From the NCBI GenBank assembly GCA_003194525.1, contig NBIV01000271.1, positions 34,618 to 98,617 on the forward strand: DNA of 64,000 nucleotides, in the 5' to 3' direction. The position numbers and the translations under genes are program-made. This DNA is from Gracilariopsis chorda (Eukaryota; Rhodophyta; Florideophyceae; Gracilariales; Gracilariaceae). Positions 27,691 through 57,284 of the stretch are shown one piece after another. Under the pieces are notes generated by a model. It did no database searches and had not been told where the DNA came from. It was given only the letters and a program-made list of their open reading frames with translations. The first letter of the stretch is position 1. Each line of letters opens with the position of its first letter.

Positions 27691-27706
27691 ATTTGTTAGA
27701 GTTCGA

Positions 27707-31731: not shown

Positions 31732-32150
31732 GGTATGACTACGCCCAAATATCTTTGATGCGTTAGCCACGGATATGTTGGATTGCCTTGCAGATATGTA
31801 TAAAAGCTAAAGGATTCGAGGTCTTCGGGACCAGAACAACTTCGCTGTCTATGCACTGCTGCAGGAACGTCATCATTCATATGCCTTTTGTTCAAGACAC
31901 GGAGTTTCAAAACCCTAGGCGTCTGCAGCCCCCTGATGACAAACGATTAAAAGGCTACCGTTCAGTATATAGTTAGCTGAAGAACGTACTCTTTGGCACA
32001 CCTGGATATGCCCATTTTCTGTAATTTGCTTCATCTGTGCTTATAACACGCGAGAAGAAACTTGCCTTCCGCCTTGAATTTAAAGAACACTCATCTTACC
32101 CAGTGGGCCAGTCTGGTTTAAAGCCGTAGTAGCCATCGCCATCCAAACCC

Positions 32151-32157
32151 GTATAAG
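32151..32157 (+). promoter_or_regulatory. TATA-like element upstream of SCR4
   Basis: GTATAAG lies about 55 bp before the SCR4 ATG, a plausible core promoter distance. Confidence 0.4.
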
Positions 32158-32211
32158 TCAACGTTCTCATCTGTCTACGGTACTGTACACACAAGGATTA
32201 CTCACTACGTC

Positions 32212-32745
32212 ATGACTGCGTTAGTGCTGCTTGCTTTTCTTTTCACTCTGGCCTCTTCCCTTCCGAGACGTGATCCTCAAAACCCGCGACTCATTGTGTC
32301 GCGATCAAAATCATCATCTCTATTACCGAGAACACCCATTCTGCAACTAACGGCAGCAACTACTCCGCTGTTGATCTTATGCCGAAATGGTTCGTGTCGC
32401 AGCGGCATCCGGCGTTTTATCTGCAGATACGAGGACGACACCAATGTTATTCCTCCAACCGGTCTTACGCTTCTACTCTCAGCTGAGCAAATTGGTCATA
32501 ACAAAATCAATGTCCAATACCAAGCAACCGTGCCATTCTCCTTGGTAGAAAGGGGCTTTCTAGGATCCATTCCTTGGCGGGCCACTATGAACAACCGCAG
32601 AGGCGGAATCACATGCGGAAGCCAGATCCCAATTCTAGGTGACCCTGTCGTTTCTTCGGAGGCTGGTTGGTGCTGTTCTGCGTGTAGCTGGCTTTCGCCC
32701 CATGAATCACAACCACCAAGCCTACTCTGTTGTGATTTTTGTTAA
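32212..32745 (+). CDS. SCR4: secreted 10-Cys protein, closest to SCR1
   Basis: 177 residues. The signal peptide MTALVLLAFLFTLASS is followed by a short basic linker without the long Pro-rich spacer of SCR1. The core aligns with SCR1 in order: TTPLLILCRNGSCR, RRFIC, QYQATVPF, GFLGSIPWRAT, GGITCG, then the tail GWCCSACSWLSPHE, PPSLLCCDFC and stop. Ten mature cysteines occur in the same order. Conservation of Cys, of QYxATVP and of IPWR across SCR1 and SCR4, against freely changed residues between, argues for a selected fold. No enzyme motif. Function unknown; an extracellular role is inferred from the signal peptide and cysteines. Confidence 0.75.
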   Translation: MTALVLLAFLFTLASSLPRRDPQNPRLIVSRSKSSSLLPRTPILQLTAATTPLLILCRNGSCRSGIRRFICRYEDDTNVIPPTGLTLLLSAEQIGHNKINVQYQATVPFSLVERGFLGSIPWRATMNNRRGGITCGSQIPILGDPVVSSEAGWCCSACSWLSPHESQPPSLLCCDFC

Positions 32746-35242: not shown

Positions 35243-35681
35243 TCTCAACACCCCACTCTTAATGATTTACACATGTATGAGGGGGGTGTTGTTGATTGAT
35301 GGGAGGCGGTGCGCCAATAAACCGCTCTGTATGCCCCTCTACGCGCATGCAAAACTGCCATTTGGCGCAACGCCTCCCTGCCATTTAAAAAATTCAGCAG
35401 CAGCAGCAGCAGCAAAGCTTCCTGCTTACTGGCTGGCACTCCCATAATGACTGCAGTGCCACCCAGTTACACAAAGCAACATGTCGCGTTTTCTCATCAT
35501 TGGCTGGCACTGCAGTCAATTTAGACACCTAGGCGCCGCGGCGCCCCGTGGTTCTACGAGCGCTATTGCGAGCGCAAGCGAGCAAAGTGCTCGGAGAGCC
35601 TCCGAACGCCACGAAATACACAAAGCTACAAAAACAACGCGGCGCGCAGCGCCGCCCACGGCCGAAGGCCGTTTCCACTTG
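35243..35681 (+). repeat. Reference short unit (439 bp) and its parts
   Basis: Type A unit. 5' end TCTCAACACC. First inverted pair: 35302-35315 (GGAGGCGGTGCGCC) with 35364-35377 (GGCGCAACGCCTCC), one mismatch, perfect in type B units. (CAG)6 at 35395-35412. Second inverted pair: 35448-35465 (TGACTGCAGTGCCACCCA) with 35501-35518 (TGGCTGGCACTGCAGTCA), one mismatch. Perfect 14-bp palindrome GGCGCCGCGGCGCC at 35532-35545. Terminal hairpin 35658-35672, then TTCCACTTG to the 3' end. No coding capacity is inferred. Confidence 0.9.
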
Positions 35682-38600
35682 TCTCAACACCCCACTCTTA
35701 ATGATTTACACATGTATGAGGGGGGTGTTGTTGATTGATAGGAGGCGGTGCGCCAATAAACCGCTCTGTATGCCCCTCTACGCGCATGTAAAACTGCCAT
35801 TTGGCGCAACGCCTCCCTACCACTTAAAATATTCAGCAGCAGCAGCAGCAGCAGCAAAGCTTCCTGCTTACTGGCTGGCACTCCCATAATGACTGCAGTG
35901 CCACCCAGTTACACAAAGCAACGTGTCGCGCTTCCTCATCATTGGGTGGCACTGCAGTCAGTTTAGGCACCTAGGCGCCGCGGCGCTCCGTGGTTCTACG
36001 AGCGCTATTGCGAGCGCAAGCAAGCAAAGTGCTCGGAGAGCCTCCGAACGCCACGAAATACACAAAGCTACAAAACGCACGCGGCGCGCAGCGCCGCCCA
36101 CGGCCGAAGGCCGTTTCCACTTGTCTCTCCATTATAATGATTTGTTCCTCTATGAGGGGGGGGTTCTTGATTGAATGGAGGCGTTGCGCCATAAAATCCT
36201 CTTCCACGCCCCCGTTTGCCCATCCAAAACTGCCATTTGGCGCAACGCCTCCCTTCCATTTAAAAAATTCAGCAGCAGCAGCAGCAGCAAAGCTTCTTGC
36301 TTACTGGCTGGCACTCCCATAATGACTGCAGTGCCACCCAGTTACACAAAGCAACGTGTCGCACTTCCTCATCATTGGCTGGCACTGCAGTCAATTTAGC
36401 CACCTAGGCGCCGCGGCGCCCCGTGGTTCTACGAGCGCTATTGCGAGCGCAAGCGAGCAAAGTGCTCGGAGAGCCTCCGAACGCTACAAAATACACAAAG
36501 CTACAAAAACAACGCGGCGCGCAGCGCCGCCCACGGCCGAAGGCCGTTTCCACTTGTCTCAACACCCCACTCTTAATGATTTACACATGTATGAGGGGGG
36601 TGTTGTTGATTGATAGGAGGCGGTGCGCCAATTAACCGCTCTGTATGCCCCTCTACGCGCATGCAAAACTGCCATTTGGCGCAACGCCTCCCTACCATTT
36701 AAAAAATTCAGCAGCAGCAGCAGCAGCAAAGCTTCTTGCTTACTGGCTGGCACTCCCATAATGACTGCAGTGCCACCCAGTTACACAAAGCAACGTGTCG
36801 CACTTCCTCATCATTGGCTGGCACTGCAGTCAATTTAGCCACTTTGGCGCCGCGGCGCCCCGTGGTTCTACGAGTGCTATTGCGAGCGCAAGCGAGCAAA
36901 GTGCTCGGAGAGCCTCCGAACGCTACAAAATACACAAAGCTACAAAAACAACGCGGCGCGCAGCGCCGCCCACGGCCGAAGGCCGTTTCCACTTGTCTCA
37001 ACACCCCACTCTTAATGATTTACACATGTATGAGGGGGGTGTTGTTGATTGATAGGAGGCGGTGCGCAAATTAACCGCTCTGTATGCCCCTCTACGCGCA
37101 TGCAAAACTGCCATTTGGCGCAACGCCTCCCTACCATTTAAAAAATTCAGCAGCAGCAGCAGCAGCAAAGCTTCCTGCTTATTGGCTGGCACTCCCATAA
37201 TGACTGCAGTGCCACCCAGTTACACAAAGCAACGTGTCACGCTTTCTCATCATTGGATGGCACTGCAGTCAATTTAGCCACCTAGGCGCCGCGGTGCCCC
37301 GTGGTTCTACGAGCGCTATTGCGAGCGCAAGCGAGCAAAGTGCTCGGAGAGCCTCCGAACGCCACGAAATACAAAAAGCTACAAAACCAACGCGGCGCGC
37401 AGCGCCGCCCACGGCCGAAGGCCGTTTCCACTTGTCTCAACACCCCACTCCTAATGATTTACACATGTATGAGGGGGGTGTTATTGATTGACAGGAGGCG
37501 GTGCGCCAATAAACCACCCTGTATGCCCCTCTACGCGCATGCAAAACTGCCATTTGGCGCAACGCCTCCCTACCACTTAACAAATTCAGCAGCAGCAGCA
37601 GCAGCAAAGCTTCCTGCTTACTGGCTGGCACTCCCATAATGACTGCAGTGCCATCCAGTTACAGAAAGCAACGTGTCGCGCTTTCTCATCATTGGCTGGC
37701 ACTGCAGTCAATTTAGGCACCTAGGCGCCGCGGCGCCCCGTGGTTCTACGAGCGGTATTGCGAGCGCAAGCGAGCAAAGTGCTCGGAGAGCCTCCGAACG
37801 CCACGAAATACAAAAAGCTACAAAACCAACGCGGCGCGCAGCGCCGCCCACGGCCGAAGGCCGTTTCCACTTGTCTCAACACCCCACTCTTAATGATTTA
37901 CACATGTATGAGGGGGGTGTTATTGATTGACAGGAGGCGGTGCGCCAATAAACCGCCCTGTATGCCCCTCTACGCGCATGCAAAACTGCCATTTGGCGCA
38001 ACGCCTCCCTACCACTTAACAAATTCAGCAGCAGCAGCAGCAGCAAAGCTTCCTGCTTACTGGCTGGCACTCCCATAATGACTGCAGTGCCATCCAGTTA
38101 CAGAAAGCAACGTGTCGCGCTTTCTCATCATTGGCTGGCACTGCAGTCAATTTAGGCACCTAGGCGCCGCGGCGCCCCGTGGTTCTACGAGCGGTATTGC
38201 GAGCGCAAGCAAGCAAAGTGCTCGGAGAGCCTCCGAACGCCACGAAATACAAAAAGCTACAAAACCAACGCGGCGCGCAGCGCCGCCCACGGCCGAAGGC
38301 CGTTTCCACTTGTCTCTCCATTATAATGATTTGTTCCTCTATGAGGGGGGTGTTCTTGATTGAATGGAGGCGTTGCGCCATAAACTCCTCTTCCACGCCC
38401 CCGTTTGCCCATCCAAAACTGCCATTTGGCGCAACGCCTCCCTGCCATTTAAAAAATTCAGCAGCAGCAGCAGCAGCAAAGCTTCCTGCTTACTGGCTGG
38501 CACTCCCATAATGACTGCAGTGCCACCCAGTTACACAAAGCAACGTGTCGCACTATCTCATCATTGGCTGGCACTGCAGTCAATTTAGACACCTAGGCGC

Positions 38601-41600
38601 CGCGGCGCCCCGTGGTTCTACGAGCGCTATTGCGAGTGCATGCGAGCAAAGTGCTCGGAGAGCCTCCGAACGCCACGAAATACACAAAGCTACAAAAACA
38701 ACGCGGCGCGCAGCGCCGCCCACCGCCGAAGGCCGTTTCCACTTGTCTCAACACCCCATTCTTAATGATTTACACATGTATGAGGGGGGTGTTGTTGATT
38801 GATGGGAGGCTGTGCGCCAATTAACCGCTCTGTATGCCCCTCTAGGCGCATGCAAAACTGCCATTTGGCGCAACGCCTCCCTACCACTTAAAAAATTCAG
38901 CAGCAGCAGCAGCAGCAAAGCTTCCTGCTTACTGGCTTGCACTCCCATACTGACTGCAGTGCCATCCAGTTACACAAAGCAACGTGTCGCGCGTTCTCAT
39001 CATTGGCTGGCAGTGCAGTCAATTTTGGCACCTAATAGGCACCTAAACACAAATCCCTACGGCTCCACATACTCTCGGCGCCGCGGCGCCCCGTGGTTCT
39101 ACGAGCGCTATTGTGAGCGCAAGCGAGCGAAGTGCTCGGAGAGCCTCCGAACGCTACGAAATACACAAAGCTACAAAACCAACGCGGCGCGCAGCGCCGC
39201 CCAAGGCCGAAGGCCGTTTCCACTTTTCTCTCCATTATAATGATTTGTTCCTCTTCTCTCCATTATAATGATTTGTTCCTCTATGAGGGGGGTGTTCTTG
39301 ATTGAATGGAGGCTTTGCGCCACAAAATCCTCTTGCACGCCCCCGTTTGCCCATCCAAATCGCCCATTTGGCGCAACGCCTCCCTACCATTAAAAAAATT
39401 CAGCAGCAGCAGCAGCAGCAAAGCTTCTTGCTTACTGGCTGGCACTCCCATAATGACTGCAGTGCCACCCAGTTACACAAAGCAACGTGTCGCACTTCCT
39501 CATCATTGGCTGGCACTGCAGTCAATTTAGCCACCTAGGCGCCGCGGCGCCCCGTGGTTCTACGAGTGCTATTGCGAGCGCAAGCGAGCAAAGTGCTCGG
39601 AGAGCCTCCGAACGCTACAAAATACACAAAGCTACAAAAACAACGCGGCGCGCAGCGCCGCCCACGGCCGAAGGCCGTTTCCACTTGTCTCAACACCCCA
39701 CTCTTAATGATTTACACATGTATGAGGGGGGTGTTGTTGATTGATGGGAGGCGGTGCGCAAATTAACCGCTCTGTATGCCCCTCTACGCGCATGCAAAAC
39801 TGCCATTTGGCGCAACGCCTCCCTACCATTTAAAAAATTCAGCAGCAGCAGCAGCAGCAAAGCTTCTTGCTTACTGGCTGGCACTCCCATAATGACTGCA
39901 GTGCCACCCAGTTACACAAAGCAACGTGTCGCACTTCCTCATCATTGGCTGGCACTGCAGTCAATTTAGCCACCTAGGCGCCGCGGCGCCCCGTGGTTCT
40001 ACGAGTGCTATTGCGAGCGCAAGCGAGCAAAGTGCTCGGAGAGCCTCCGAACGCCACGAAATACAAAAAGCTACAAAACCAACGCGGCGCGCAGCGCCGC
40101 CCACGGCCGAAGGCCGTTTCCACTTGTCTCAACACCCCACTCTTAATGATTTACACATGTATGAGGGGGGTGTTATTGATTGACAGGAGGCGGTGCGCCA
40201 ATAAACCGCCCTGTATGCCCCTCTACGCGCATGCAAAACTGCCATTTGGCGCAACGCCTCCCTACCACTTAACAAATTCAGCAGCAGCAGCAGCAGCAAA
40301 GCTTCCTGCTTACTGGCTGGCACTCCCATAATGACTGCAGTGCCATCCAGTTACAGAAAGCAACGTGTCGCGCTTTCTCATCATTGGCTGGCACTGCAGT
40401 CAATTTAGGCACCTAGGCGCCGCGGCGCCCCGTGGTTCTACGAGCGGTATTGCGAGCGCAAGCGAGCAAAGTGCTCGGAGAGCCTCCGAACGCCACGAAA
40501 TACAAAAAGCTACAAAACCAACGCGGCGCGCAGCGCCGCCCACGGCCGAAGGCCGTTTCCACTTGTCTCAACACCCCACTCTTAATGATTTACACATGTA
40601 TGAGGGGGGTGTTATTGATTGACAGGAGGCGGTGCGCCAATAAACCGCCCTGTATGCCCCTCTACGCGCATGCAAAACTGCCATTTGGCGCAACGCCTCC
40701 CTACCACTTAACAAATTCAGCAGCAGCAGCAGCAGCAAAGCTTCCTGCTTACTGGCTGGCACTCCCATAATGACTGCAGTGCCATCCAGTTACAGAAAGC
40801 AACGTGTCGCGCTTTCTCATCATTGGCTGGCACTGCAGTCAATTTAGGCACCTAGGCGCCGCGGCGCCCCGTGGTTCTACGAGCGGTATTGCGAGCGCAA
40901 GCAAGCAAAGTGCTCGGAGAGCCTCCGAACGCCACGAAATACAAAAAGCTACAAAACCAACGCGGCGCGCAGCGCCGCCCACGGCCGAAGGCCGTTTCCA
41001 CTTGTCTCTCCATTATAATGATTTGTTCCTCTATGAGGGGGGTGTTCTTGATTGAATGGAGGCGTTGCGCCATAAACTCCTCTTCCACGCCCCCGTTTGC
41101 CCATCCAAAACTGCCATTTGGCGCAACGCCTCCCTACCACTTAAAATATTCAGCAGCAGCAGCAGCAGCAAAGCTTCCTGCTTACTGGCTGGCACTCCCA
41201 TAATGACTGCAGTGCCACCCAGTTACACAAAGCAACGTGTCGCGCTTCCTCATCATTGGGTGGCACTGCAGTCAGTTTAGGCACCTAGGCGCCGCGGCGC
41301 TCCGTGGTTCTACGAGCGCTATTGCGAGTGCAAGCAAGCAAAGTGCTCGGAGAGCCTCCGAACGCCACGAAATACAAAAAGCTACAAAACCAACGCGGCG
41401 CGCAGCGCCGCCCACGGCCGAAGGCCGTTTCCACTTGTCTCTCCATTATAATGATTTGTTCCTCTATGAGGGGGGGGTTCTTGATTGAATGGAGGCGTTG
41501 CGCCATAAAATCCTCTTCCACGCCCCCGTTTGCCCATCCAAAACTGCCATTTGGCGCAACGCCTCCCTTCCATTTAAAAAATTCAGCAGCAGCAGCAGCA

Positions 41601-44600
41601 GCAAAGCTTCTTGCTTACTGGCTGGCACTCCCATAATGACTGCAGTGCCACCCAGTTACACAAAGCAACGTGTCGCACTTCCTCATCATTGGCTGGCACT
41701 GCAGTCAATTTAGCCACCTAGGCGCCGCGGCGCCCCGTGGTTCTACGAGCGCTATTGCGAGCGCAAGCGAGCAAAGTGCTCGGAGAGCCTCCGAACGCTA
41801 CAAAATACACAAAGCTACAAAAACAACGCGGCGCGCAGCGCCGCCCACGGCCGAAGGCCGTTTCCACTTGTCTCAACACCCCACTCTTAATGATTTACAC
41901 ATGTATGAGGGGGGTGTTGTTGATTGATAGGAGGCGGTGCGCCAATTAACCGCTCTGTATGCCCCTCTACGCGCATGCAAAACTGCCATTTGGCGCAACG
42001 CCTCCCTACCATTTAAAAAATTCAGCAGCAGCAGCAGCAGCAAAGCTTCCTGCTTATTGGCTGGCACTCCCATAATGACTGCAGTGCCACCCAGTTACAC
42101 AAAGCAACGTGTCACGCTTTCTCATCATTGGATGGCACTGCAGTCAATTTAGCCACCTAGGCGCCGCGGTGCCCCGTGGTTCTACGAGCGCTATTGCCAG
42201 CGCAAGCGAGCAAAGTGCTCGGAGAGCCTCCGAACGCCACGAAATACAAAAAGCTACAAAACCAACGCGGCGCGCAGCGCCGCCCACGGCCGAAGGCCGT
42301 TTCCACTTGTCTCAACACCCCACTCTTAATGATTTACACATGTATGAGGGGGGTGTTATTGATTGACAGGAGGCGGTGCGCCAATAAACCGCCCTGTATG
42401 CCCCTCTACGCGCATGCAAAACTGCCATTTGGCGCAACGCCTCCCTACCACTTAACAAATTCAGCAGCAGCAGCAGCAGCAAAGCTTCCTGCTTACTGGC
42501 TGGCACTCCCATAATGACTGCAGTGCCATCCAGTTACAGAAAGCAACGTGTCGCGCTTTCTCATCATTGGCTGGCACTGCAGTCAATTTAGGCACCTAGG
42601 CGCCGCGGCGCCCCGTGGTTCTACGAGCGGTATTGCGAGGGCAAGCAAGCAAAGTGCTCGGAGAGCCTCCGAACGCCACGAAATACAAAAAGCTACAAAA
42701 CCAACGCGGCGCGCAGCGCCGCCCACGGCCGAAGGCCGTTTCCACTTGTCTCTCCATTATAATGATTTGTTCCTCTATGAGGGGGGTGTTCTTGATTGAA
42801 TGGAGGCGTTGCGCCATAAACTCCTCTTCCACGCCCCCGTTTGCCCATCCAAAACTGCCATTTGGCGCAACGCCTCCCTGCCATTTAAAAAATTCAGCAG
42901 CAGCAGCAGCAGCAAAGCTTCCTGCTTACTGGCTGGCACTCCCATAATGACTGCAGTGCCACCCAGTTACACAAAGCAACGTGTCGCACTATCTCATCAT
43001 TGGCTGGCACTGCAGTCAATTTAGACACCTAGGCGCCGCGGCGCCCCGTGGTTCTACGAGCGCTATTGCGAGCGCATGCGAGCAAAGTGCTCGGAGAGCC
43101 TCCGAACGCCACAAAATACACAAAGCTACAAAACCAACGCGGCGCGCAGCGCCGCCCACGGCCGAAGGCCGTTTCCACTTGTCTCAACACCCCACTCTTA
43201 ATGATTTTCACATGTATGAGGGGGGTGTTGTTGATTGATGGGAGGCGGTGCGCCAATAAACCGCCCTGTATGCCCCTCTACGCGCATGCAAAACTGCTAT
43301 TTGGCGCAACGCCTCCCTACCACTTAACAAATTCAGCAGCAGCAGCAGCAGCAAAGCTTCCTGCTTACTGGCTGGCACTCCCATAATGACTGCAGTGCCA
43401 TCCAGTTACAGAAAGCAACGTGTCGCGCTTTCTCATCATTGGCTGGCACTGCAGTCAATTTAGGCACCTAACCAAAAACCCTAATGGCTCCACATACTCT
43501 CCGCGCCGCGGCGCCCCGTGGTTCTACGAGCACTATTGCGAGGGCAAGCGAGCAAAGTGCTCGGAGAGCCTCCGAACGCTACAAAATACACAAAGCTACA
43601 AAAACAACGCGGCGCGCAGCGCAGCCCACGGCCGAAGGCCGTTTCCACTTGTCTCAACACCCCACTCTTAATGATTTTCACATGTATGAGGGGGGTGTTG
43701 TTGATTGATGGGAGGCTGTGCGCCAATTAACCGCTCTGTATGCCCCTCTAGGCGCATGCAAAACTGCCATTTGGCGCAACGCCTCCCTACCACTTAAAAA
43801 ATTCAGCAGCAGCAGCAGCAGCAAAGCTTCCTGCTTACTGGCTTGCACTCCCATACTGACTGCAGTGCCATCCAGTTACACAAAGCAACGTGTCGCGCGT
43901 TCTCATCATTGGCTGGCAGTGCAGTCAATTTTGGCACCTAATAGGCACCTAAACACAAATCCCTACGGCTCCACATACTCTCGGCGCCGCGGCGCCCCGT
44001 GGTTCTACGAGCGCTATTGCGAGGGCAAGCGAGCGAAGTGCTCGGAGAGCCTCCGAACGCTACGAAATACACAAAGCTACAAAACCAACGCGGCGCGCAG
44101 CGCCGCCCAAGGCCGAAGGCCGTTTCCACTTTTCTCTCCATTATAATGATTTGTTCCTCTTCTCTCCATTATAATGATTTGTTCCTCTATGAGGGGGGTG
44201 TTCTTGATTGAATGGAGGCTTTGCGCCACAAAATTCTCTTGCACGCCCGCGTTTGCCCATCCAAATCGCCCATTTGGCGCAACGCCTCCCTACCATTAAA
44301 AAAATTCAGCAGCAGCAGCAGCAGCAAAGCTTCTTGCTTACTGGCTGGCACTCCCATAATGACTGCAGTGCCACCCAGTTACACAAAGCAACGTGTCGCA
44401 CTTCCTCATCATTGGCTGGCACTGCAGTCAATTTAGCCACCTAGGCGCCGCGGCGCCCCGTGGTTCTACGAGCGCTATTGCGAGCGCAAGCGAGCAAAGT
44501 GCTCGGAGAGCCTCCGAACGCTACAAAATACACAAAGCTACAAAAACAACGCGGCGCGCAGCGCCGCCCACGGCCGAAGGCCGTTTCCACTTGTCTCAAC

Positions 44601-47292
44601 ACCCCACTCTTAATGATTTACACATGTATGAGGGGGGTGTTGTTGATTGATAGGAGGCGGTGCGCCAATTAACCGCTCTGTATGCCCCTCTACGCGCATG
44701 CAAAACTGCCATTTGGCGCAACGCCTCCCTACCATTTAAAAAATTCAGCAGCAGCAGCAGCAGCAAAGCTTCCTGCTTATTGGCTGGCACTCCCATAATG
44801 ACTGCAGTGCCACCCAGTTACACAAAGCAACGTGTCACGCTTTCTCATCATTGGATGGCACTGCAGTCAATTTAGCCACCTAGGCGCCGCGGTGCCCCGT
44901 GGTTCTACGAGCGCTATTGCCAGCGCAAGCGAGCAAAGTGCTCGGAGAGCCTCCGAACGCCACGAAATACAAAAAGCTACAAAACCAACGCGGCGCGCAG
45001 CGCCGCCCACGGCCGAAGGCCGTTTCCACTTGTCTCAACACCCCACTCTTAATGATTTACACATGTATGAGGGGGGTGTTATTGATTGACAGGAGGCGGT
45101 GCGCCAATAAACCGCCCTGTATGCCCTCTACGCGCATGCAAAACTGCCATTTGGCGCAACGCCTCCCTACCACTTAACAAATTCAGCAGCAGCAGCAGCA
45201 GCAAAGCTTCCTGCTTACTGGCTGGCACTCCCATAATGACTGCAGTGCCATCCAGTTACAGAAAGCAACGTGTCGCGCTTTCTCATCATTGGCTGGCACT
45301 GCAGTCAATTTAGGCACCTAGGCGCCGCGGCGCCCCGTGGTTCTACGAGCGGTATTGCGAGCGCAAGCGAGCAAAGTGCTCGGAGAGCCTCCGAACGCCA
45401 CGAAATACAAAAAGCTACAAAACCAACGCGGCGCGCAGCGCCGCCCACGGCCGAAGGCCGTTTCCACTTGTCTCAACACCCCACTCTTAATGATTTACAC
45501 ATGTATGAGGGGGGTGTTATTGATTGACAGGAGGCAGTGCGCCAATAAACCCCCCTGTATGCCCCTCTACGCGCATGCAAAACTGCCATTTGGCGCAACG
45601 CCTCCCTACCACTTAACAAATTCAGCAGCAGCAGCAGCAGCAAAGCTTCCTGCTTACTGGCTGGCACTCCCATAATGACTGCAGTGCCATCCAGTTACAG
45701 AAAGCAACGTGTCGCGCTTTCTCATCATTGGCTGGCACTGCAGTCAATTTAGGCACCTAGGCGCCGCGGCGCCCCGTGGTTCTACGAGCGGTATTGCGAG
45801 CGCAAGCGAGCAAAGTGCTCGGAGAGCCTCCGAACGCCACGAAATACAAAAAGCTACAAAACCAACGCGGCGCGCAGCGCCGCCCACGGCCGAAGGCCGT
45901 TTCCACTTGTCTCTCCATTATAATGATTTGTTCCTCTATGAGGGGGTGTTCTTGATTGAATGGAGGCGTTGCGCCATAAACTCCTCTTCCACGCCCCCGT
46001 TTGCCCATCCAAAACTGCCATTTGGCGCAACGCCTCCCTGCCATTTAAAAAATTCAGCAGCAGCAGCAGCAGCAAAGCTTCCTGCTTACTGGCTGGCACT
46101 CCCATAATGACTGCAGTGCCACCCAGTTACACAAAGCAACGTGTCGCACTATCTCATCATTGGCTGGCACTGCAGTCAATTTAGACACCTAGGCGCCGCG
46201 GCGCCCCGTGGTTCTACGAGCGCTATTGCGAGCGCATGCGAGCAAAGTGCTCGGAGAGCCTCCGAACGCCACGAAATACACAAAGCTACAAAACCAACGC
46301 GGCGCGCAGCGCCGCCCACGGCCGAAGGCCGTTTCCACTTGTCTCAACACCCCACTCTTAATGATTTACACATGTATGAGGGGGGTGTTGTTGATTGATG
46401 GGAGGCGGTGCGCCAATAAACCGCCCTGTATGCCCCTCTACGCGCATGCAAAACTGCCATTTGGCGCAACGCCTCCCTACCACTTAACAAATTCAGCAGC
46501 AGCAGCAGCAGCAAAGCTTCCTGCTTACTGGCTGGCACTCCCATAATGACTGCAGTGCCATCCAGTTACAGAAAGCAACGTGTCGCGCTTTCTCATCATT
46601 GGCTGGCACTGCAGTCAATTTAGGCACCTAAACAAAAACCCTAATGGCTCCACATACTCTCCGCGCCGCGGCGCCCCGTGGTTCTACGAGCACTATTGCG
46701 AGCGCAAGCGAGCAAAGTGCTCGGAGAGCCTCCGAACGCTACTAAAAACACAAAGCTACAAAAACAACGCGGCGCGCAGCGCAGCCCACGGCCGAAGGCC
46801 GTTTCCACTTGTCTCAACACCCCACTCTTAATGATTTTCACATGTATGAGGGGGGGGTTGTTGATTGATGGGAGGCTGTGCGCCAATTAACCGCTCTGTA
46901 TGCCCCTCTAGGCGCATGCAAAACTGCCATTTGGCGCAACGCCTCCCTACCACTTAAAAAATTCAGCAGCAGCAGCAGCAGCAAAGCTTCCTGCTTACTG
47001 GCTTGCACTCCCATACTGACTGCAGTGCCATCCAGTTACACAAAGCAACGTGTCGCGCGTTCTCATCATTGGCTGGCAGTGCAGTCAATTTTGGCACCTA
47101 ATAGGCACCTAAACACAAATCCCTACGGCTCCACATACTCTCGGCGCCGCGGCGCCCCGTGGTTCTACGAGCGCTATTGTGAGCGCAAGCGAGCGAAGTG
47201 CTCGGAGAGCCTCCGAACGCTACGAAATACACAAAGCTACAAAACCAACGCGGCGCGCAGCGCCGCCCAAGGCCGAAGGCCGTTTCCACTTT
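35243..47292 (+). repeat. Left array: 27 head-to-tail short Helitron units
   Basis: Units of mostly 439 bp, with 433-bp variants and longer ones of about 490-500 bp. Two 5' variants alternate: TCTCAACACCCCACTCTTAA (type A) and TCTCTCCATTATAATG (type B). Units are nearly identical to each other. Blocks recur as higher-order repeats: 42981-44208 is repeated at 46141-47368 (offset 3,160). Each unit ends with ACGGCC-GAA-GGCCGT and TTCCACTTG. The period is not a multiple of three, and the 66-142-codon frames found in every unit are by-products of the repetition, not genes. Confidence 0.95.
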
Positions 47293-47471
47293 TCTCTCCA
47301 TTATAATGATTTGTTCCTCTTCTCTCCATTATAATGATTTGTTCCTCTATGAGGGGGGTGTTCTTGATTGAATGGAGGCTTTGCGCCACAAAATCCTCTT
47401 GCACGCCCCCGTTTGCCCATCCAAATCGCCCATTTGGCGCAACGCCTCCCTACCATTAAAAAAATTCAGCA

Positions 47472-47517
47472 GCAGCAGCAGCAGCAAAGCGTTAAGTTAG
47501 TTTGCTGCTGCTGCTGC
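47472..47517. repeat. CAG/CTG inverted repeat at the unit-leader junction
   Basis: Left arm 47472-47488 (five GCA repeats ending AAA) is perfectly complementary to 47501-47517 (TTTGCTGCTGCTGCTGC) with a 12-nt loop. It marks the point where the long unit departs from the short-unit consensus. Confidence 0.8.
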
Positions 47518-47623
47518 AAGTTGACTGTGCAATGGCTGCTGAATGGCTTGCAATACAATCAAATTGTTGTGCCAGCCACTCAGCAGCAAAACCCCGCCTG
47601 TTCATTCCGACACGTGGCAAATT

Positions 47624-47704
47624 GCACTGCGCCAGTGCAGTGTATACTGAAGTTTCATTGCAGACTTGCCTGCAACAGACGTATATACTGCACTGGCGCA
47701 GTGC
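47624..47704. repeat. Large stem-loop in the Helitron leader
   Basis: Arms 47624-47647 and 47681-47704 pair over 24 positions with one mismatch (GCACTGCGCCAGTGCAGTGT...). The 33-nt loop contains TTGCAG/CTGCAA. The left arm includes a partly self-complementary CACTGCGCCAGTG. It could act as a cruciform or RNA hairpin upstream of the gene; function unknown. Confidence 0.75.
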
Positions 47705-48372
47705 CAAATGCATCTCGCTTGCTGACCCTAACCACTTTTTTGCATCCCATTCAGGCTTGGCCAATAGCGCAGTGTCGTAACCTTTTGCTTGTTTGGGCAC
47801 TGTTTGCTGGCCTGGGACCTAGGCAAGGCCGAGCTCGTGTGCAGGTCGCCACAAGAGTAACCCACTAAGTACCACGGATCTGGGAAAAGTCAGGTGCTCC
47901 TCTGTGGTATACTGGTCGTTTGACGGCGATCAGGAAGTCTGAAGGTTTACCGGACCTAATACCAGCTTACTGTGCAGGATCTGGGGCGGCCGCCGTGTCG
48001 TACCTCTTGGGGCCGGAAAGCACACTTCGGTGTGTGAGTAAAGGCAGACCAATCCTTACAACCGGACGCGGGTTAAACATCAAACGGCTTGAAAACCGGC
48101 TGGGCACACTCCGCCCGTCATAATCCAACAGGAGTGTGTCGAGAGTCCCTGTGCTGCGCACGACTGCATCGGGTAAATATAAGCCTTGCAGCAATTTGTT
48201 TTTTTAATTGCTGCATGCGACTAGGACCGGTGGGTGCAAAGCAACAAACTGCAACCAGTTTTTCACTTTCAACTTTGTGGTATATTGGAAATTATTCTGG
48301 AACTCTGGCAAATTTTTTAACGGTTTACAAAAACATAGAATTGTTTTTTTTTCCTTTTTCTGGTAAATTGAA
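47705..48372 (+). promoter_or_regulatory. Helitron gene leader with TATA-like box and UUCG-type hairpin
   Basis: No ORF of note. CACAC-TTCG-GTGTG (48021-48034) forms a hairpin with the very stable UUCG-type loop. TAAATATAAG at 48174-48183 is the best TATA-like sequence, 190 bp before the ATG at 48373. Promoter assignment is inferred from position only. Confidence 0.4.
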
Positions 48373-51300
48373 ATGACGAGAGGAGGGCGACGTCTAAACT
48401 CTGGTGGCGTCCGATCTAACTCAGGAGGTGCCAGAGACAATTCTGGAGGTGCCAGGTTGAACGCAGGCGGTGCAAGGCAAAACGCTGGTGGTCGTCGCGT
48501 CGGCAGTGGTGGAGCACGGGCAGGAGCTGGAAGACCCCGAAGAGCACCAGCTCTTCCAGCTCCAGATGAGTTGGGAGTAAATGAGAGCGGAGCACACGTT
48601 CAAGGACCTATTGTTCCAGTGGTTGAAGAAGACGAAATTACTCCTGCACCTACTTCGGTTGCAGCAGCAGTTAGCACAAGCGCCGCTGGAGCCAGTGAGT
48701 CCGCTGCCACAGATCTACCGACATCGTTCCCACTTCCTGGATTTCTGGAGTTTGTGAGAGGCCTTCCAAGTCACATTCCACCGCCTCCGATGCCTCCCTT
48801 TCTCCCACCGATGCCTGCAGAACAGATGCCGGTTGCGATGGAAGTGGAAGAGGATGAGATCATCCCTGCTCCTCCACAGCCACCGCTGTCACCACCGCCG
48901 CCACAGCAGCCTGCTCTGCCACAAGTTGAACAAGAGGAAGAACAGATGCCAGTCCCGATGGAAGTGGAAGAGGATGAGATCACCCCGGCTCCCTCACACC
49001 CGCCGCCACAGCCTGCGTTGCCACAAGCTGAACAGGAAGAACAACAGATGTCCATTCCGATGGAGGTGGAAGCGGATGAGATCACACCGGCTCCCTCACA
49101 CCAGCCGCAGCATCAGCCACAGCAACAGCTTGATACGACGGTCATGCACTGTGCTGGGCGTCCTGATCGAGGACTTTATCGCGTGTAATATGCGTGGGAT
49201 TCCGTGGCAGCTCAGGCGAGGAATGATCCGGCCATCCGTGCAAGCGTGCCGGAGTTTGAGACGCTGCCCACTGCAGGTCAAAGGCGATGCGGAAGATGCG
49301 ACGAGCACGCACACACGCTCTCCTCCTGCCTGTACCGGGACTGGACATTGAGAATTCATAGCTGCAAGTACTGCGGATGCGTTTTGCTTGGCAAAGAGAC
49401 CAATGGAGTGTACTGTGGAATGAAAAGAATGTCAGGGTGGGGCGTCACGTTCCGCAGAAGGCATAGCAACGAGTTGGTTTGCAGTCTTTATAGTCTGAGA
49501 GCCTTCCACAGCCATTTTCTCAACTTGCATACGCTCTTCGCTACGACGCAAGCGTTCATGGACATGTCGTATGTGACGGGAGGCGGTCCCTCCTTTCTGA
49601 GACTTGAGGGAAACGCAGGTCTGGCTCTGCCCACGCAGAACCAGAACAACACGCGCTACAGCTTTCTGTGGGGTACTGGTCCGCCTTCCTTGGATCCCTC
49701 TCACTATACGCGTGCCAATTTGCGTGCGTTCATTCAAGATATCAACGTACGAGACATCGTGCCCAAGTTGTACGATGTGATCCAGCCGAAGCCAGACGTG
49801 GTGCGTGAGCGGTACCGATCCATGCTTAGCACGCAACAACAACAACAAAATGCAGATACCGCCGTCCATATCAGCATGCAGGCAGCAGAAGAGGGAGTAG
49901 TCGTACGTAGTTACGAAGGAACCCGAAGTGCCACATTCAGTGCTCCTCACGCAGGTGATGTCCCTCTCCCTGAAGATGCTCCTGGTGGGGGGCAAACGTG
50001 AGGAAAACGCTCGTCGTGGATCATATTAGCCTGTACCCAGTGGAATCCCACGTACCGCGCTTGGTAGAAGGAACCGTAACAGAAGAGCACGCCATAGTGA
50101 CGGCTGCCACTGCTAGTAATGATGGAGACGGGGCGATTTCGAATGCCGCAAAGAATGCGCAAGTGCGGTACCGTCTTCTAAAACCGGTATCCAAAATGGC
50201 AGAGAAAGGCACTTTCCCTCTGCTCTACCCGTACGGTGATCAGCACGAACCGTTTGACATTGGCGTGTTTCTGGAGGCAAAGAACTCAACACAGCAAATC
50301 TCAGGTCTCAGCGTCAACGAGTGGAAGCTCCGAAAGCTCACCTGGGCTGAGAACGCGAAGAGACGACTGTACTCAGACAACATCCTTCTGGACAGTGGAC
50401 CGTTGATGCAGATGTGGATGCTTCGCACCCACACAAACATTGAGGACATGGGACTGCGTTTCCTGGAAAGAGAACAACGGGCACGCATTGTACAAGAGCA
50501 AGAAATGCAGCAAGCACAACAGCAAACCGGTCACGTGCCACAATCTCAGTTCGTGCTAGTGGGACGCATCTTTCTGCCCAATGACTCGGTGAACTCAGCA
50601 GCATACTGGAAGAACAAGCGCATGGATGTACAGGCGATCGTGGCGCGGAGAGGACCGCCTTCTCTGTTCATTACAATCACCATGAACATCTGGCGAATGG
50701 ACATCCAGCGTCTTGGGATGGACACCACCAATCGTGGCGCATTTACGGCACAAAGTAACCGCCCTCGACCGTTTGACCGACCGGATCTGATTGCAAGGGT
50801 GTAGAACCAGTACGCAAACGACTTCATGAAGGATTTGGAGAAGAACTCGGGGCAGATCTTTGGATTGAAGTGCCTGGGGCTTGCATCAAAGCTCGAATTT
50901 CAAGAGCGCAATGTGCCTCATCACCACATGCTCGTGTGGCTCGAAGGAGGCGTGATTGAAGACGTTGATGTGATCGACGAGCTCATTCGTGCAGAACTTC
51001 CCCTTCCAGGCGAAGACGACGCGTTGCGTGCTCTCATTCGTTCCATGCACAGGCACCGCCACTCCACCTATTGCCGGAATCGCTCTGGGCGGTGCAAGTT
51101 TGGATACGACAGCATTATGACTGTGCCGGAGACGTACATTGAAGAAGGCACAAATCGCTTTATTTACCGCAGAAGAAGGCAAGAAGACCTCAAGATTGTG
51201 CCGTACAACCCAACTCTGACCAAGAAGTACCGCTCTCATATCAACGTAGAACGCACGCAAGGAGGGGGCGCAGTGGCTTATCTGATGAAGTACGCGTTTA

Positions 51301-53783
51301 AGCAGCCCAAAGCTCAGGAGGTGGTGCTCAATGTGAGTGATGCTAATGATACAAGCACACACAACGCGCAGCAACAAGAGCCACAGGTGCAGAACGACAT
51401 TCGTGCATACATGCGAGCGCGTGTGGTGGGCGCCGTCAATGCAGCTTGGAGACTTTTCGAGTTTCGACATGTTCACATCGTACCAAAAGTAGAGCGACTG
51501 GCTATTCACTTGGAAGGAGAGCGCACATTTCTGCTGAGAGGTCCAAACCAGCTCTTTTCTGCATCACAGCCGTCTACACTGGAGAGATACTTTGCAAGGC
51601 CCGAAGCATACGCGAACCTCGACTACCTTTCGTACTTTGAAAAAGTGCGATTGTATCGCACGCTTCCAGCCCGCGTGCTTAACCAATACGACGGAGAGAG
51701 CACTCAGGTGCCCACAGACGACTGCGATCCGCCCATGTACGTGGTAGAGCGCACGGACGACGAGCAGTGCGTCGCAAGGATCAGAGGTGTTTCACCGTCG
51801 GACATTGAGCTCTTTGCTCTGCGCTTGCCGCTCATGAATCACGGCTCGAGCTCTTATGAAGACGCAAGGACTTTCAACGGACAGCAGTATGGAACGTATC
51901 GTGAAACTGCGATTGTAAGCGGACTGCTCGCGGACGGATCCGAGTTTGATATTGCATTCCAAGAAGCAGTGCAGATATACAGCACGCCCTCAGAGCTACG
52001 ACGTCTGGTTGTTGCACTATACCAACAAGGCGCAGACCCAGAAAAAATGGCCGTCGAAAACTGGGAGGCACTATGTAGCAACGTACATACAGGAGATGAG
52101 CAGCAACGAAAGCAAGAAATGTATCGACGTGTGGTGGAAATCTCAGACCGGCACGGAGGACGACTGCTTCGCGATCACAGCTTCTTCTCCCAACACCTAC
52201 AGCAGGATCATACAGCACTGACTGAGGCGAATCGAGCTACAACAACTCGAGACGCACAAGTGGTGCGAAATTCGTCAACTTTGCAGTCAAGGTACGCCAC
52301 CTTAAAACCTCGCCAAAGACAAGTCATTGACACCGTCATTGCCGCATTGCAACAACTACAAGCGCTGCAGGAGAAAACCAGCACTCCTGGAAACTTGTTC
52401 TTTGTGCAAGGATCCGCAGGAACTGGAAAGACATACGTGATCAACCTCCTTCGTGATATCGTTGAGTCGGAAGGAATGCTCGCTGAAATGACTGCTACAA
52501 CAGGCATTGCAGCTTCGTTGTACGAAGGTGGCCGCACTTTACATAGCCTGCTCGGACTGGGTGTAGCTGATAGGGACAGCACAAGCAGCACTACAGCCAC
52601 TTTGTCAAAGTACGGTCCCCGATCTCAACGTGCAGAACTGCTACGTGAAATACAACTGCTCGTCTTGGATGAAGCGTCCATGCTCTCACGAAAGCTCTTC
52701 CAACTCATGGATGCGTTGCTCAAAGATCTTCGCTGCAGTGGAATGGAAAACCTGCCTCCGTTTGGGGGCTTGACCATCATTCTATCCGGGGACTACTCCC
52801 AGCTGCTTCCAGTGGTGCCGCAGGTGTACATGGAGGCCGAGCCAAGTGGTAATGTGAGACGAGTGTACACAAAAATTCTCAACGAATTGCCGTCGAAGAG
52901 TGATCTGTGGACATTGTGCTCGGTTCAAGTGCTGTACCTCACGGAACAAGTACGCCAAGCCGATGATCCGGCATTTGCGTCGCTGTTACGTTCCATTGCA
53001 CGAAACACAATATCCAACAACGCTCCAATACCACTCAGATCTACCGGTGGCATGCAAACTGCCTACCAATTCCTGTGGAAGTGGCTCACAACACGACGCA
53101 AGGAGGATGTGGATCTCAGCAAAATGCTCATTGCCTCCACAAATCAGTTGGTCGATGAACACAATGTGGCAGCGCTGGATCTGTTTCCTGGTGAACGCTT
53201 CACTCTTCCGTAAGCTACGACGGTACAACCTGACCGTGTACCAAACTAAGAGCCCGACGTCACCATTACCTTTGTTCCCGAGTTTGCGTATCAGTATGCA
53301 CCTACTGGTGTACCTCCTCATAACTTGGATTTTAAGATTAATGTGCCAGTTGTGGTCATTCGGAACGTGCTGCATCCCACTGTGGTCAACGGAAAGCTGT
53401 TCGTAGTCGTGCGTGTCGATCACTTTACGATGCAGGTGGCTCGATTCGACGAGAACGGACAGGTACTGGAACGACAGCTCCTGCATCGTATCCACTTCGA
53501 GTTTTCTTTCGCAGACATTCGCATGATTCGAAGGCAGTTCCCTATTCGTCTTGCGTTTGCAGCTACAGTTCACAAAGGACAGGGAAAAACCTTGGATGGA
53601 TTGGTTGTGGATGTACGATCCAACTTCTTCTGCGCAGGTCAGTTGTATGTCGCATTGTCGCGCGTTCGAAGGAACGACCATGTGCTGCTCCTGCATGATC
53701 TGCAGCTTACACCCGCGAATGCGCACACAATTCATCCCATGCCTTTTCCCATCGCCAACCCAGTGCTGCCTGAAGCTATTTAG
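48373..53783 (+). pseudogene. Helitron Rep-helicase (RepHel), interrupted
   Basis: Rolling-circle transposase with fused PIF1-type helicase. The N-terminus (48373-49185) has Gly/Arg/Asn repeats (GGARxN type) then a Pro/Glu-rich region with four copies of VE[EA]DEI[TI]PAP. After an in-frame TAA (49186-49188) a Cys-rich zinc-finger region follows (CGRCDEHAHTLSSC...CKYCGC). A one-base shift occurs near 49990 in a G run. The Helitron N domain (PPSLFITITMN) precedes a TAG (50802-50804). The HUH motif is PHHHMLVWL (50919), and the Tyr/Lys motif AYLMKYAFK lies near 51280. The helicase has Walker A GSAGTGKT (52410-52433), Walker B LVLDEAS, GDYSQLLPVV, two TAA codons (53211 and 53247), then [10 protein letters not shown] and YVALSRVRR. 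Four stops and one shift; otherwise full length (about 1,800 codons). Confidence 0.93.
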
Positions 53784-53930
53784 TTCTGCATCCCTCCACA
53801 ACCGTAATCATATCTCTTGCATTCTTCTTTCATTGGATTAAACTACTTGCTTTTCTGCTTTTGCTTTCTCCAACCTCTTTTTTCCTCACCGCTGTTTATC
53901 ACTCCTCCACCGCGGCGCGCAGCGCCGCCC

Positions 53931-53954
53931 GCGGCCGAAGGCCGCTTCCTCTTG
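53931..53954 (+). terminator. 3' terminal hairpin of the Rep-helicase unit
   Basis: GCGGCC-GAA-GGCCGC followed by TTCCTCTTG, the Helitron replication-stop type of structure. The stem is perfect and differs from the ACGGCC/GGCCGT stem of the short units by compensating changes at its base pair (A-T to G-C). Confidence 0.75.
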
Positions 53955-56270
53955 TCTCTCCATTATAAGTATTTGTTCCTCTATTAGGGGGGTGTTCTTG
54001 ATTGAATGGAGGCGTTGCGCCACAAAATCGTCTTGCACGCCCCCGTTTGCCCATGCAAAACGCCCATTTGGCGCAACGCCTCCCTACCATTTAAAAATTC
54101 AGCAGCAGCAGCAAAGCTTCCTGCTTACTGGCTGGCACTCCCATAATGACTGCAGTGCCATCCAGTTACATAAAGCAACGTGTCGCGCTTTCTCACCATT
54201 TGCTGGCACTGCAGTCAATTTTAGCACCTAAACACAAACCCCTACGGCTCCACATACTGTCGGCGCCGCGGCGCTCCGTAGTTCTACGAGCACTATTGCG
54301 AGCGCAAGCGAGCAAAGTGCTCGGAGAGCCTCCGAACGCTACTAAATACACAAAGCTACAAAAACAACGCGGCGCGCAGCGCCGCCCACGGCCGAAGGCC
54401 GTTTCCACTTGTCTCTCCATTATAAGTATTTGTTTCTCTATGAGGGGGGTGTTCTTGATGGAATTGAGACGTTGCGCCACAAAATCGTCTTGCACGCCCC
54501 CGTTTGCCCATGCAAAACGCCCATTTGGCGCAACGCCTCCCTACCATTTAAAAAATTCACCAGCAGCAGCAGCAGCAAAGCTTCCTGCTTACTGGCTGGC
54601 ACTCTAATAATGACTGCAGTGCCACCCGGTTACACAAAGCAACGTGTCGCACTTTCTTATCATTGGCTGGCACTGCAGTCAATTTAGGTACCTAAACACA
54701 AACCATTACGGCTTTACATACTCTGGGCGCCGCGGCGCCCCGTGGTTCTGCAAGCGCTATTGCGAGCGCAAGCGAGCAAAGTGCTCGGAGAGCCCCCGAA
54801 CGCTACGAAATAAACAAAGCTACAAAATCAACGCGGCGCGCAGCGCCGCCCACAGCCGAAGACCGTTTCTACTTGTCTCAAACCCCACTCTTAATGATTT
54901 ACACATGTATGAGGGGGGTGTTGTTGATTGACGGGAGGCGGTGCGCCAATAAACCGCCCTGTATGCCCCTCTACGCGCTTGCAAAACTGCCATTTGGCGC
55001 AACGCCTCACTACCACTTAAAAAATTCAGCAGCAGCAGCAGCAGCAAAGCTTCCTGCTTACTGGCTGGCACTCCCATAATGACTGCAGTGCCAGCCAGTT
55101 ACAAAAAGCAACGTGTTGCGCTTTCTCATCATTTGCTGGCACTGCAGTCAATGTAGGTACCTAAACAAAATCCCTAAGGCTCCACCAACTGTGGGCGCCG
55201 CGGCGGCCCGTGGTTCTACGATCGCCATTGCGAGCGCAAGCGAGCAAAGTGCTCGGAGAGCCTCCGAACGGTACAAAATAAACAAAGCTACAAAACCAAC
55301 GCGGCGCGCAGGGCCGCCCACGGCCGAAGGCCGTTTCTTCTTGTCTCAACACCCCACTTTTAATGATTTACACATGTATGAGGGGGGTGTTGTTGACTGA
55401 CGGGAGGCGTTGCGCCACAAATTCGCTTTGCACGCCCCCGTTTGCGCATGCAAATCGCCAATTTGGTTCAACGCCTCCCCACCATTTAAAAAATTCAGCA
55501 GCAGCAGCAGCAGCTAAGCCTCCTGCCTACTGCCCGGCACTCCCATAATGACTGCAGTGCTACCCAGTTATACAAAGCAATGTGTCGCGCTTCCTCATCA
55601 TTGGCTGGCACTGCAGTCAATTTAGGTACCTAAACACAAACCACTACTCTAGGCGCCGCGGCGCCCCGTGGTTCTACGCGCGCTATTGCGAATGCAAGCG
55701 AGCAAAGTGCTCGGAGAGTCTCCGAACGCTACTAAATACACAAAGCTACAAACCCAACGCGGCGCGCAGCGCCGCCCACGGCCGAAGGCCGTTTCTACTT
55801 GTCTCAACACCCTACTCTTAATGATTTACACATGTATGAGGGGGGTGTTGTTGACTGACGGGATGCGTTGCCCCACAAATTCGCTTTGCAGGCCCCCGTT
55901 TGCGTATTCAAATGGTCCATTTGGCGCAACGCCTCCCCACCATTTAAAATTTTCAGCAGCAGCAGCAACAGCTAAGCTTGCTGCTTACTGGCTGGCACTC
56001 CCATAATGACTGCAGTGTCAGCCAGTTACAAAAATCAACGCGTTGCGCTTTCTCATCATTTGCTGGCACTGCAGTCAATGTAGGTACCTAAACAAAACCC
56101 CTAAGGCTCCACATACTGTAGGCGCCGCGGCGCCCCGTGGTTCTACGAGCGCTATTGCGAGCGCAAGCGAACAAAGTGCTCTGAGAGCCTCCGAACGCTA
56201 CTAAATACACAAAGCTACAAAAACAACGCGACGCGCAGCGCCGCCAATGGCCGAAGGCCGTTCCCACTTG
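53955..56270 (+). repeat. Right array: 5 head-to-tail short Helitron units
   Basis: Units 53955-54411, 54412-54875, 54876-55343, 55344-55801 and 55802-56270 (457-469 bp). The first two start TCTCTCC, the others TCTCAA. They are more diverged than units in the left array, and all carry the longer form with a TAAACAAA(A/C)CC insertion before the 14-bp palindrome. The second inverted pair is perfect in some (TGACTGCAGTGCCAGCCA near 55081). Confidence 0.92.
56247..56270 (+). terminator. 3' end of the whole Helitron insertion
   Basis: ATGGCC-GAA-GGCCGT (one G-T pair in the stem) plus TCCCACTTG, then the flanking Gypsy-C frame resumes with T at 56271. This fixes the right border to the base. Confidence 0.85.
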
Positions 56271-57284
56271 TGGTAAAGTTCATCATTGATAGCCTCAATA
56301 ATCTCTATTGGTCCGTGCCAGTGCATCGCTGGTTTGTAGCCAGCGAAGAAGTCTTCGCGTGCGACAAGAGCAAAATCACCTTCCGTAAACGTCGGTAGTT
56401 CGCTGCGTTCGGCAGCCTTGCGTTTGCATTCGTGCAATGACCGTACGGAATTTCGCACCAGTGGGTGACGCTCCGCTATTGGGTGTTGCAGCGCATAGAA
56501 GTTTACAATTCTCTCTCGCTGTGTCTCGGAAGCAGTAACTGACTTGACCGTAGTGGTTCGCAGAAAAAGAGAAATGGGCAGCGCAGGATCCATGCCCGTA
56601 AATAACGTGATCAGCGCGACATTTTTCCGTTGTAGTGGCGGTGCCTTGTTCAAAACGCTCAGTATCAGTAGCAGTGGATCCGTCCACGCTCCGAACCGCA
56701 TCTGCACTTCAGAAACAACCGATCGGAATACTGTATTCAGCTCCTTTCCCAGGCACTCGACCGCGCCGCTACTCCAGAGCGTTAGGGCAGCGAAAATGGT
56801 GGGGAACTTTCAGTCTTTTTTACACTAACCGAACGGTCTCATTGCATAAATGGGTAGGCCCATCAGACATAAGTCCGTTTGGTACTTCAAAAGCAGCAGA
56901 ATAGTCAATATGTGCCGTTTCAGCGTTAACCGCCACGGTGTCGCTGAACAGGAAAAAAATCATTTGTAATCGGAATGGCCGTCGTGCAGCATTAGCAAGC
57001 ATTTATCACCGTTACGGCTGGGTTCGATTTCGATGTAGTCGAGCTGTAAGAGGTCAGTCACCGCTGTAACATGGAAGGCCGGTCAATGTGCTTGGTACCT
57101 TCCAGCAGTCAACGGTCGATAAACAGTTGATGCAGGAGCGGACAAAGGACCAGATGTCTGTGATCATTGTCTACCAGAAGTAGTGACGTCGTGAAACCGT
57201 TTTGGTAGTGGAATTACCACAGTGGCCGCTAGGTCCGTTGTGAACAATGATGCATAGTCGCCACTGTAGTTCCGAGGCGGTATC
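56271..57284 (-). pseudogene. pol: Gypsy-C integrase
   Basis: Minus strand. The HHCC zinc finger is visible in pieces (LQWRLCIIVHNGPSGHCG then SFVRSCINCLSTV, 57280-57100). The core has LQLDYIEIEPSRNGDK and HSDYKWFF (first Asp), VPNGLMSDGPTH (second Asp, near 56900) and GAVECLGKEL (Glu), followed by the C-terminal part QMRFGAWTDP, PITLFTG-like ALITLFTGMDPALP and TEGDFALVAREDFFAG. Several frameshifts separate these. It is interrupted at its low-coordinate end by the Helitron (codon split CA|T) and at its high-coordinate end by a solo LTR. Confidence 0.85.

Follow-up and report, generated by a model that had tools for sequence, protein, structure and literature searches.

How Helitrons come to pile up in tandem is unsettled, and two published proposals, one invoking rolling-circle concatemers and the other repeated insertion, predict the same junctions between neighboring copies. 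The window analyzed here, a 64,000-nucleotide (nt) stretch of the genome of the red alga Gracilariopsis chorda, raises this question through 33 head-to-tail Helitron units that fill positions 35243 to 56270 (21 kilobases, kb) and interrupt a host reading frame. We find that a defined word, TAANNATT, is favored just right of the cut in host DNA and is the same word as that carried in the left terminal sequence of the element, a coincidence that separates the two ideas. The array is probably best explained by self-targeted polar accretion of copies at its 5′ border, followed by the duplication of blocks within it.

Both borders of the array are base-exact when checked in the raw sequence. At 35242/35243 (slashes mark joints), the host reads ...TTTAACA/TCTCAACACC, and at 56270/56271 the array meets the host as ...CCCACTTG/TGGTAAAG, such that a host A lies to the left of the insertion and a host T to its right. 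All 33 units begin with TCTC, 30 end with CTTG and three with CTTT, and each of the 32 internal junctions is exact, 29 reading CTTG/TCTC and three CTTT/TCTC (at the ends of units 9, 20, and 27). An initial sequence-only reading had described an exactly bordered, head-to-tail series of 33 Helitrons at an A/T target, and this description is confirmed, with the cuts at the element ends and 32/32 junctions exact. Its further statement that every unit has the same two ends is correct in that both ends are present in 33/33 units, but these are of mixed kinds, with two 5′-end types and several lengths (432 to 481 base pairs, bp, for 32 short units and 6662 bp for unit 28), rather than copies of one repeated monomer. 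Near the 3′ end of the element is a palindrome, GGCC-GAA-GGCC, with a stem of 6 to 7 bp and a loop of 3 (15 to 17 nt in total) that ends 9 to 11 nt before the terminus. This hairpin is visible in a DNA fold, yet the 80-nt stretch that contains it folds no better than shuffled sequences (z 0.02).

The sole coding member claimed for this series is indeed unit 28, which encodes a Rep-helicase in broken frames. Pfam matches in this unit include Helitron_like_N (PF14214, E 1.6e-15) and PIF1 (PF05970, E 5.5e-38), and both families also match the open frame of a second array, on C38. Both the window copy of the gene and that in C38 retain the motifs PHHHM, YLMKY, and GSAGTGKT. The best match to a Rep-helicase piece outside this genome is from Gracilaria domingensis, with 52% identity over 48% of the query.

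The host sequence also bears on the borders. On the minus strand, the left flank reads VKDLQNGSKVEVNVTSLKFYRDSAL..., and a codon (CA/T, read by eye) is split by the insertion between the portions of the frame encoded by the right and left flanks. Translation thus bears out the proposal that a Gypsy pol frame continues across the empty site, with the qualification that the label “Gypsy” comes from appearance only, since a Pfam search of the host frame matched no family. The proposed search for an empty site was also successful, as a paralogous copy that is approximately 80% identical (contig C35, locus L075) carries the two flanks uninterrupted (80.3% over 482 nt and 80.9% over 492 nt). Its two alignments are separated by 17 nt where the window has 5 + 12; these nucleotides align poorly, and by length nothing has been gained or lost. 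The contiguous empty site thus upholds both the assigned borders and the lack of a target duplication.

We then examined the element ends across the assembly (91.3 Mb, 1081 contigs), which contains 302 exact CTTG/TCTC junctions. The other 3′ ends counted, with ends followed by a TC other than TCTC left out, number 71; T followed by A, G, or T comes after 66 of these (at least two of which look like mutated junctions), and A, C, or G after the remaining five. At the opposite end, A precedes 26/28 A-type left ends among the matches listed (100 of 404). The pattern used for left ends also caught TCTCTCC starts, and for this reason only the 28 A-type rows were used.

Sequences to the right of the cut carry a preferred word. 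It was noticed as a recurring AT-rich motif in the right flanks of 30 read ends (the discovery set). Scores for the best match to AATGATT gave way to counts of the plain word AA..ATT (usually TAA..ATT), with its start at flank base 8 to 18, i.e., 5 to 15 nt after CTTG/T followed by A, G, or T. With this definition, the word is found at 30/66 ends genome-wide, including 17/30 in the discovery set and 13/36 among ends that were not used to find it. Control A/T sites followed by A, G, or T within the discovery-set flanks have the word in 41/2004 cases (2.0%). When two apparent mutated junctions (C287, C358) and two repeated flanks (C183, C699) are removed by eye from the held-out ends, 9/32 still carry the word (p 1e-8). 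The reversed word occurs at 0/30 ends versus 25/2004 control sites, and the word itself is present in 1/37 left flanks. At a distance of 35 to 45 nt from the same 66 ends it occurs six times, two of these being resident 5′ ends, and it is present in 15 of the 23 discovery-set flanks that lack Helitron sequence.

The same word is conserved in the element. Among 167 parsed 5′ ends, 147 have TAA..ATT within 35 nt of the start, and 149 have AA..ATT located 10 to 22 nt from the first T, mostly at 12 or 18 depending on the 5′ type. In the window, TAA..ATT lies within 45 nt of the start in 33/33 units. The bases preceding the word differ between the 5′ types, and therefore the word and TCTC are what the ends have in common.

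These observations suggest a route by which an array could build itself. If the transposase recognizes TAANNATT both in the host target and in the left terminal sequence, then the outer border created by an insertion (host A/TCTC...TAANNATT) would itself become a preferred target. A left end that recreates its own target in this way would draw further copies, coding or noncoding, to the outer 5′ border; each arrival would generate a head-to-tail CTTG/TCTC junction, and the original host A would stay at the far left. Growth would be polar, the units becoming older from left to right. Blocks of six to seven units in the window array would later have been duplicated by unequal exchange or by multi-unit transposition. 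We lean, with less assurance than for the account of the array as a whole, toward a more general statement: that this Helitron picks targets that imperfectly resemble its own left end (A/T with TAANNATT within ~20 nt), so that the left end would serve both as the donor start site and as the best target, founding a self-extending polar array.

The link between the target word and the left end finds support in copies that landed within or beside the left ends of residents. A resident 5′ terminus is found within 60 nt to the right of the cut at 7/30 ends versus 1/639 control windows, where the library of 5′ ends included the residents of the tested loci and two of the seven are not insertions. 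Two loci (L015, L035) are antisense insertions that have resident sequence on both sides of the A/T cut. Genome-wide, the TCTC of a resident follows four exact ends at distances of 5, 6, 18, and 19 nt. Three of the intervening spacers have T as first and A as last base (C7:436423, C77, C189), and the fourth has G as its last (C317). Two of the seven ends above (L009, L010), at first taken for insertions inside a resident 5′ end, were withdrawn.

Accretion at an outer A/TCTC border implies that the age of the units should rise to the right. Indeed, divergence from the closest unit of another array increases from left to right in the C38 array (rho 0.92, n = 14), the C7 array (rho 0.52, n = 23), and the window (rho 0.38, n = 32), with a joint value that was reached by none of 5000 shuffles. 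A second measure, divergence from the consensus of a unit's own class, gives rho values of 0.83 (C38), 0.63 (C7), and 0.53 (window).

Several observations weigh against serial insertion into a self-made target. The exact word is absent in the specified range from 36/66 ends, and the right flank of the window itself has only a near match (CATCATT), its 3′ end differing by a base and lying outside the 66. Two of the seven residents noted above (L009, L010) look like neighbors with truncated 5′ ends, and the two shortest spacers could be altered junctions. Exact borders exceed near misses by ~75 to 1 (302 versus 4), and thus serial insertion fits only if the exact border is privileged. No gradient is evident in 22 smaller chains (p 0.44), many of which are cut by the 3-kb loci, or in the partly read C24 array (rho 0.07, n = 7). 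When the first and last units of all 25 chains are compared, divergence is higher at the right end in 16 and lower there in nine (p 0.09), and the gradient depends on which copies are sampled. Finally, circles and read-through concatemers would yield identical exact 3′-to-5′ junctions.

This last point leads to the strongest competing explanation, wherein the transposase would read through the 3′ end, make repeated rounds of copying on a circle, and place a single concatemer at A/T, with the units being mixed later by mutation and exchange. We consider this origin unlikely, even though head-to-tail joints are known for Helraiser (PMC4778049, in the portion available), the three CTTT junctions with their changed 3′ end are possible read-through points, and a nearly identical coding-unit junction in C512 and C424 (99.9%) fits the idea. 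Neighboring units are no closer to each other than are random pairs from the same array (p 0.50 in the window, 0.27 in C7, and 0.63 in C38), which speaks against a single read-through concatemer. Short units of both 5′ types, 1.9-kb units, and 6.6-kb units alternate within arrays; four junction pieces in C424 differ from one another by 1 to 5%; host-like spacers separate neighboring copies in four places; and three arrays show the divergence gradient. Serial insertion at the 5′ border accounts for more of this evidence; read-through, which is less well supported, may apply to parts of an array.

More doubtful still is amplification in place, in which one or two inserted copies would have been multiplied by unequal crossing-over in the manner of ordinary satellite DNA. 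The window offers some evidence of this kind, as the closest sampled relative lies inside the array for 25/32 short units, and the order of units 5 to 10 recurs in units 16 to 21 (41871–44593) and 22 to 28 (44594–53954). Together, the repeated order and the inside relatives indicate that part of this array was duplicated in blocks. This block repeat is defined by unit identities and closest relatives: a self-BLAST of the array at 98% identity and 1200 bp returned no long block, and a stricter unit test passed only one run of four units (5 to 8 with 22 to 25). In C7, the closest relative is inside the array for 12/23 units, outside for eight, and tied for three. In contrast, the closest relative in C38 is outside for 7/14, inside for five, and tied for two; moreover, several subfamilies occur within one array, and the target word is not predicted by unequal crossing-over. 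The original proposal of a rolling-circle read-through product amplified later is therefore supported in its second part, by the inside relatives and repeated blocks, and less well in its first, given the unlike neighbors, alternating types, and host-like spacers.

An assembly artifact, with similar units collapsed or chimerically joined, is very improbable: there is one assembly only and the number of units in near-identical blocks could be wrong, but the 302 junctions are spread over many contigs, the outer borders show A and T, the empty site is contiguous, and unit order differs from array to array.

The junction counts also answer whether the window array is a one-off, a possibility that is rejected by the 302 junctions and by the arrays in C7, C38, and C424. 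Its description as unusual is fair against the few papers available but not within this genome, where the search for other CTTG/TCTC arrays that had been suggested reveals exact junctions across many contigs and arrays that are larger or richer in coding units. Alongside 14 short units, the C38 array (389.8–402.8 kb) has one coding unit of 6665 bp, whose single reading frame stays open for 1809 amino acids. The 30-kb C7 array (270–300 kb, read as far as 270 kb; other arrays were read in part) includes 23 full short units along with two coding-size units of 6623 and 6521 bp that have broken frames. Four exact junctions in C424, spaced 6657, 6661, and 6664 bp apart and each after a coding-type 3′ end, delimit five coding-size units in a row, four of which scored for Rep-helicase. 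Six arrays contain both length classes; a short unit occupies the left edge in 6/6 and a long one the right edge in 5/6. The genome search for Rep-helicase gave 56 scored matches out of 1672 first-look candidates, comprising the window itself and 55 others at 92 to 96% identity, and nine of the 56 have open frames of 1807 or 1809 amino acids. Arrays with several coding units may record the order of insertion.

Within C7, at 282.5 to 291.0 kb (L079, L080), three 1.9-kb units lack the same internal portion of the coding element and retain its 3′ end. These constitute a separate nonautonomous subfamily.

By its features, the family is close to canonical Helitron1: it has an HUH/Y2 Rep fused to a PIF1-type helicase (PF14214 and PF05970, with PHHHM, YLMKY, and GSAGTGKT), a 5′ TC (TCTC in 33/33 window units), and an A/T target without duplication (T after 66/71 counted nonjunction 3′ ends, and the empty site), and it ends with CTTG, or CTTT in three of 33 window units, rather than CTRR. 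The A/T target is not the TT dinucleotide used by Helentrons. Helentrons carry an additional endonuclease domain; all family matches in the open C38 frame, analyzed as two pieces, are to Rep or helicase/ATPase. An origin as satellite DNA from truncated Helitrons, which has many 5′ ends and few 3′ ends, does not fit the presence of both ends in 33/33 window units; a few 5′ stubs do exist. In the IS200/IS605 family (IS608), target choice is directed by the transposon end. A common recognized sequence in transposon end and target would make the two systems work alike, with a different enzyme and no helicase in IS608. The canonical Helitron hairpin is described as 16 to 20 bp in size and located 10 to 15 bp before the 3′ end (PMC13286980).

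Published cases, as given in the available portions of the papers cited, share some of these features. The canonical Helitron1 elements Helraiser/Helibat of bats (PMC4778049, PMC5876387) likewise have Rep and helicase, A-T insertion, a TC 5′ end, and precise head-to-tail joints, and their 3′ hairpin may have its counterpart in the palindrome described above, but their 3′ end is CTAG rather than CTTG, and these portions define no word common to target and left end. The preference of Helraiser for AT-rich sites is strongest 3′ of the insertion, and its left end has an AT-rich stretch near the cut (PMC4778049). If target choice by resemblance to the left end were general, this known preference would amount to recognition of left-end-like sequence. 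Tandem arrays from plants and bats are cited in the same portions, none described like the present one. Two adjacent maize Helitrons are joined head to tail by a perfect G/T junction, and one of two orders proposed for them is canonical insertion at the A/T formed by a host A and the resident 5′ T (PMC2267711), the very step proposed here for red-alga arrays. The maize case differs in that it concerns one pair of elements, and the accessible text of that report gives no target word, polarity, or arrays. The plant centromeric arrays of Xiong et al. 2016 contain several to several hundred tandem repeats, but they consist of truncated copies, with many arrays having several 5′ ends and one 3′ end, and were explained by an aberrant rolling circle (as summarized in the consulted part of the review PMC12628747); unlike these, 33/33 units of the window retain their two termini, and coding members are included. 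Similarities to our arrays are also seen in Fusarium FoHeli and a Metarhizium tandem (PMC5148889): three copies in tandem, an element lying 2 bp upstream from the 5′ end of a resident, and duplicated short 5′ ends. They differ in being Helitron2-like, with other termini and another target, and in being few. For Gracilariopsis lemaneiformis, a genome study puts Helitrons at 1.71%, and a word search of the text available did not find “tandem” (PMC5970526). Within the search results and accessible passages of one open-access library, our literature search found no report of red-alga Helitron arrays or of a word common to left end and target. On this basis, three features seem to be new: a defined word that target and left end have in common, the polarity of the arrays, and their size together with the presence of coding units.

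Table 1. Features of the Helitron array and its flanks in the window.
Feature	Position	Strand	Basis or remark
Left flank: 3′ part of interrupted Gypsy-like frame, resuming VKDLQNGSK..., first stop after 51 codons	34743–35242	−	Translation; contiguous with right flank in L075
Outermost 5′ terminus (left terminal sequence), TCTC ... TAATGATT, host A before; proposed self-target	35243–35268	+	Motif counts
27 short noncoding Helitron units (432–481 bp), head to tail, 5′ types TCTCAAC... and TCTCTCC...	35243–47292	+	
Units 5–10, first copy of internal block	36996–39687	+	Unit identities, closest relatives
Variant junction CTTT/TCTC	39223–39230; also at 44129 and 47289	+	Each precedes a unit with duplicated 28-nt 5′ end
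Coding unit 28 (6662 bp), TCTC start, own 3′ end variant CGCTTCCTCTTG	47293–53954	+	
Main part of Rep-helicase gene in unit 28; stop-to-stop pieces of 273, 270, 276, and 802 amino acids	48367–53213	+	PHHHM (HUH) and YLMKY (Y2) present
Five rightmost short units (457–469 bp), most diverged of the array; proposed oldest	53955–56270	+	
Outer 3′ end: GGCCGAAGGCC hairpin, then CTTG, host T after	56246–56270	+	
Right flank: upstream part of interrupted Gypsy-like frame, ...EAINDELY; target word only as near match (CATCATT)	56271–56809	−	

Additional features of the units were observed. Units 10, 21, and 28 carry the initial 28 nt of the element twice (39227–39282, 44133–44188, and 47293–47348), each following a unit that ends with CTTT, and elsewhere stubs of the 5′ end precede whole units (8 and 39 nt in C38, 62 nt in L012). 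Within their first 300 bp, 32/32 short units and unit 28 have four to seven CAG repeats (e.g., 35395–35412). The N-terminal coding part of unit 28 includes a 102-bp tandem repeat at 48907 to 49108, whose two copies are 87% alike and yield acidic proline-rich repeats.

Elsewhere in the window, two open frames of 208 and 207 amino acids (13916–14542 and 32122–32745) matched no Pfam family. They have signal-like starts and similar cysteine-rich ends (PPSLLCC..C), and may be paralogs. Two elements that look Copia-like lie on opposite strands (20995–24081, plus; 24704–29073, minus); one of these keeps a 1028-amino-acid frame with RVT_2, and the other is fragmented, with an integrase core in one fragment.

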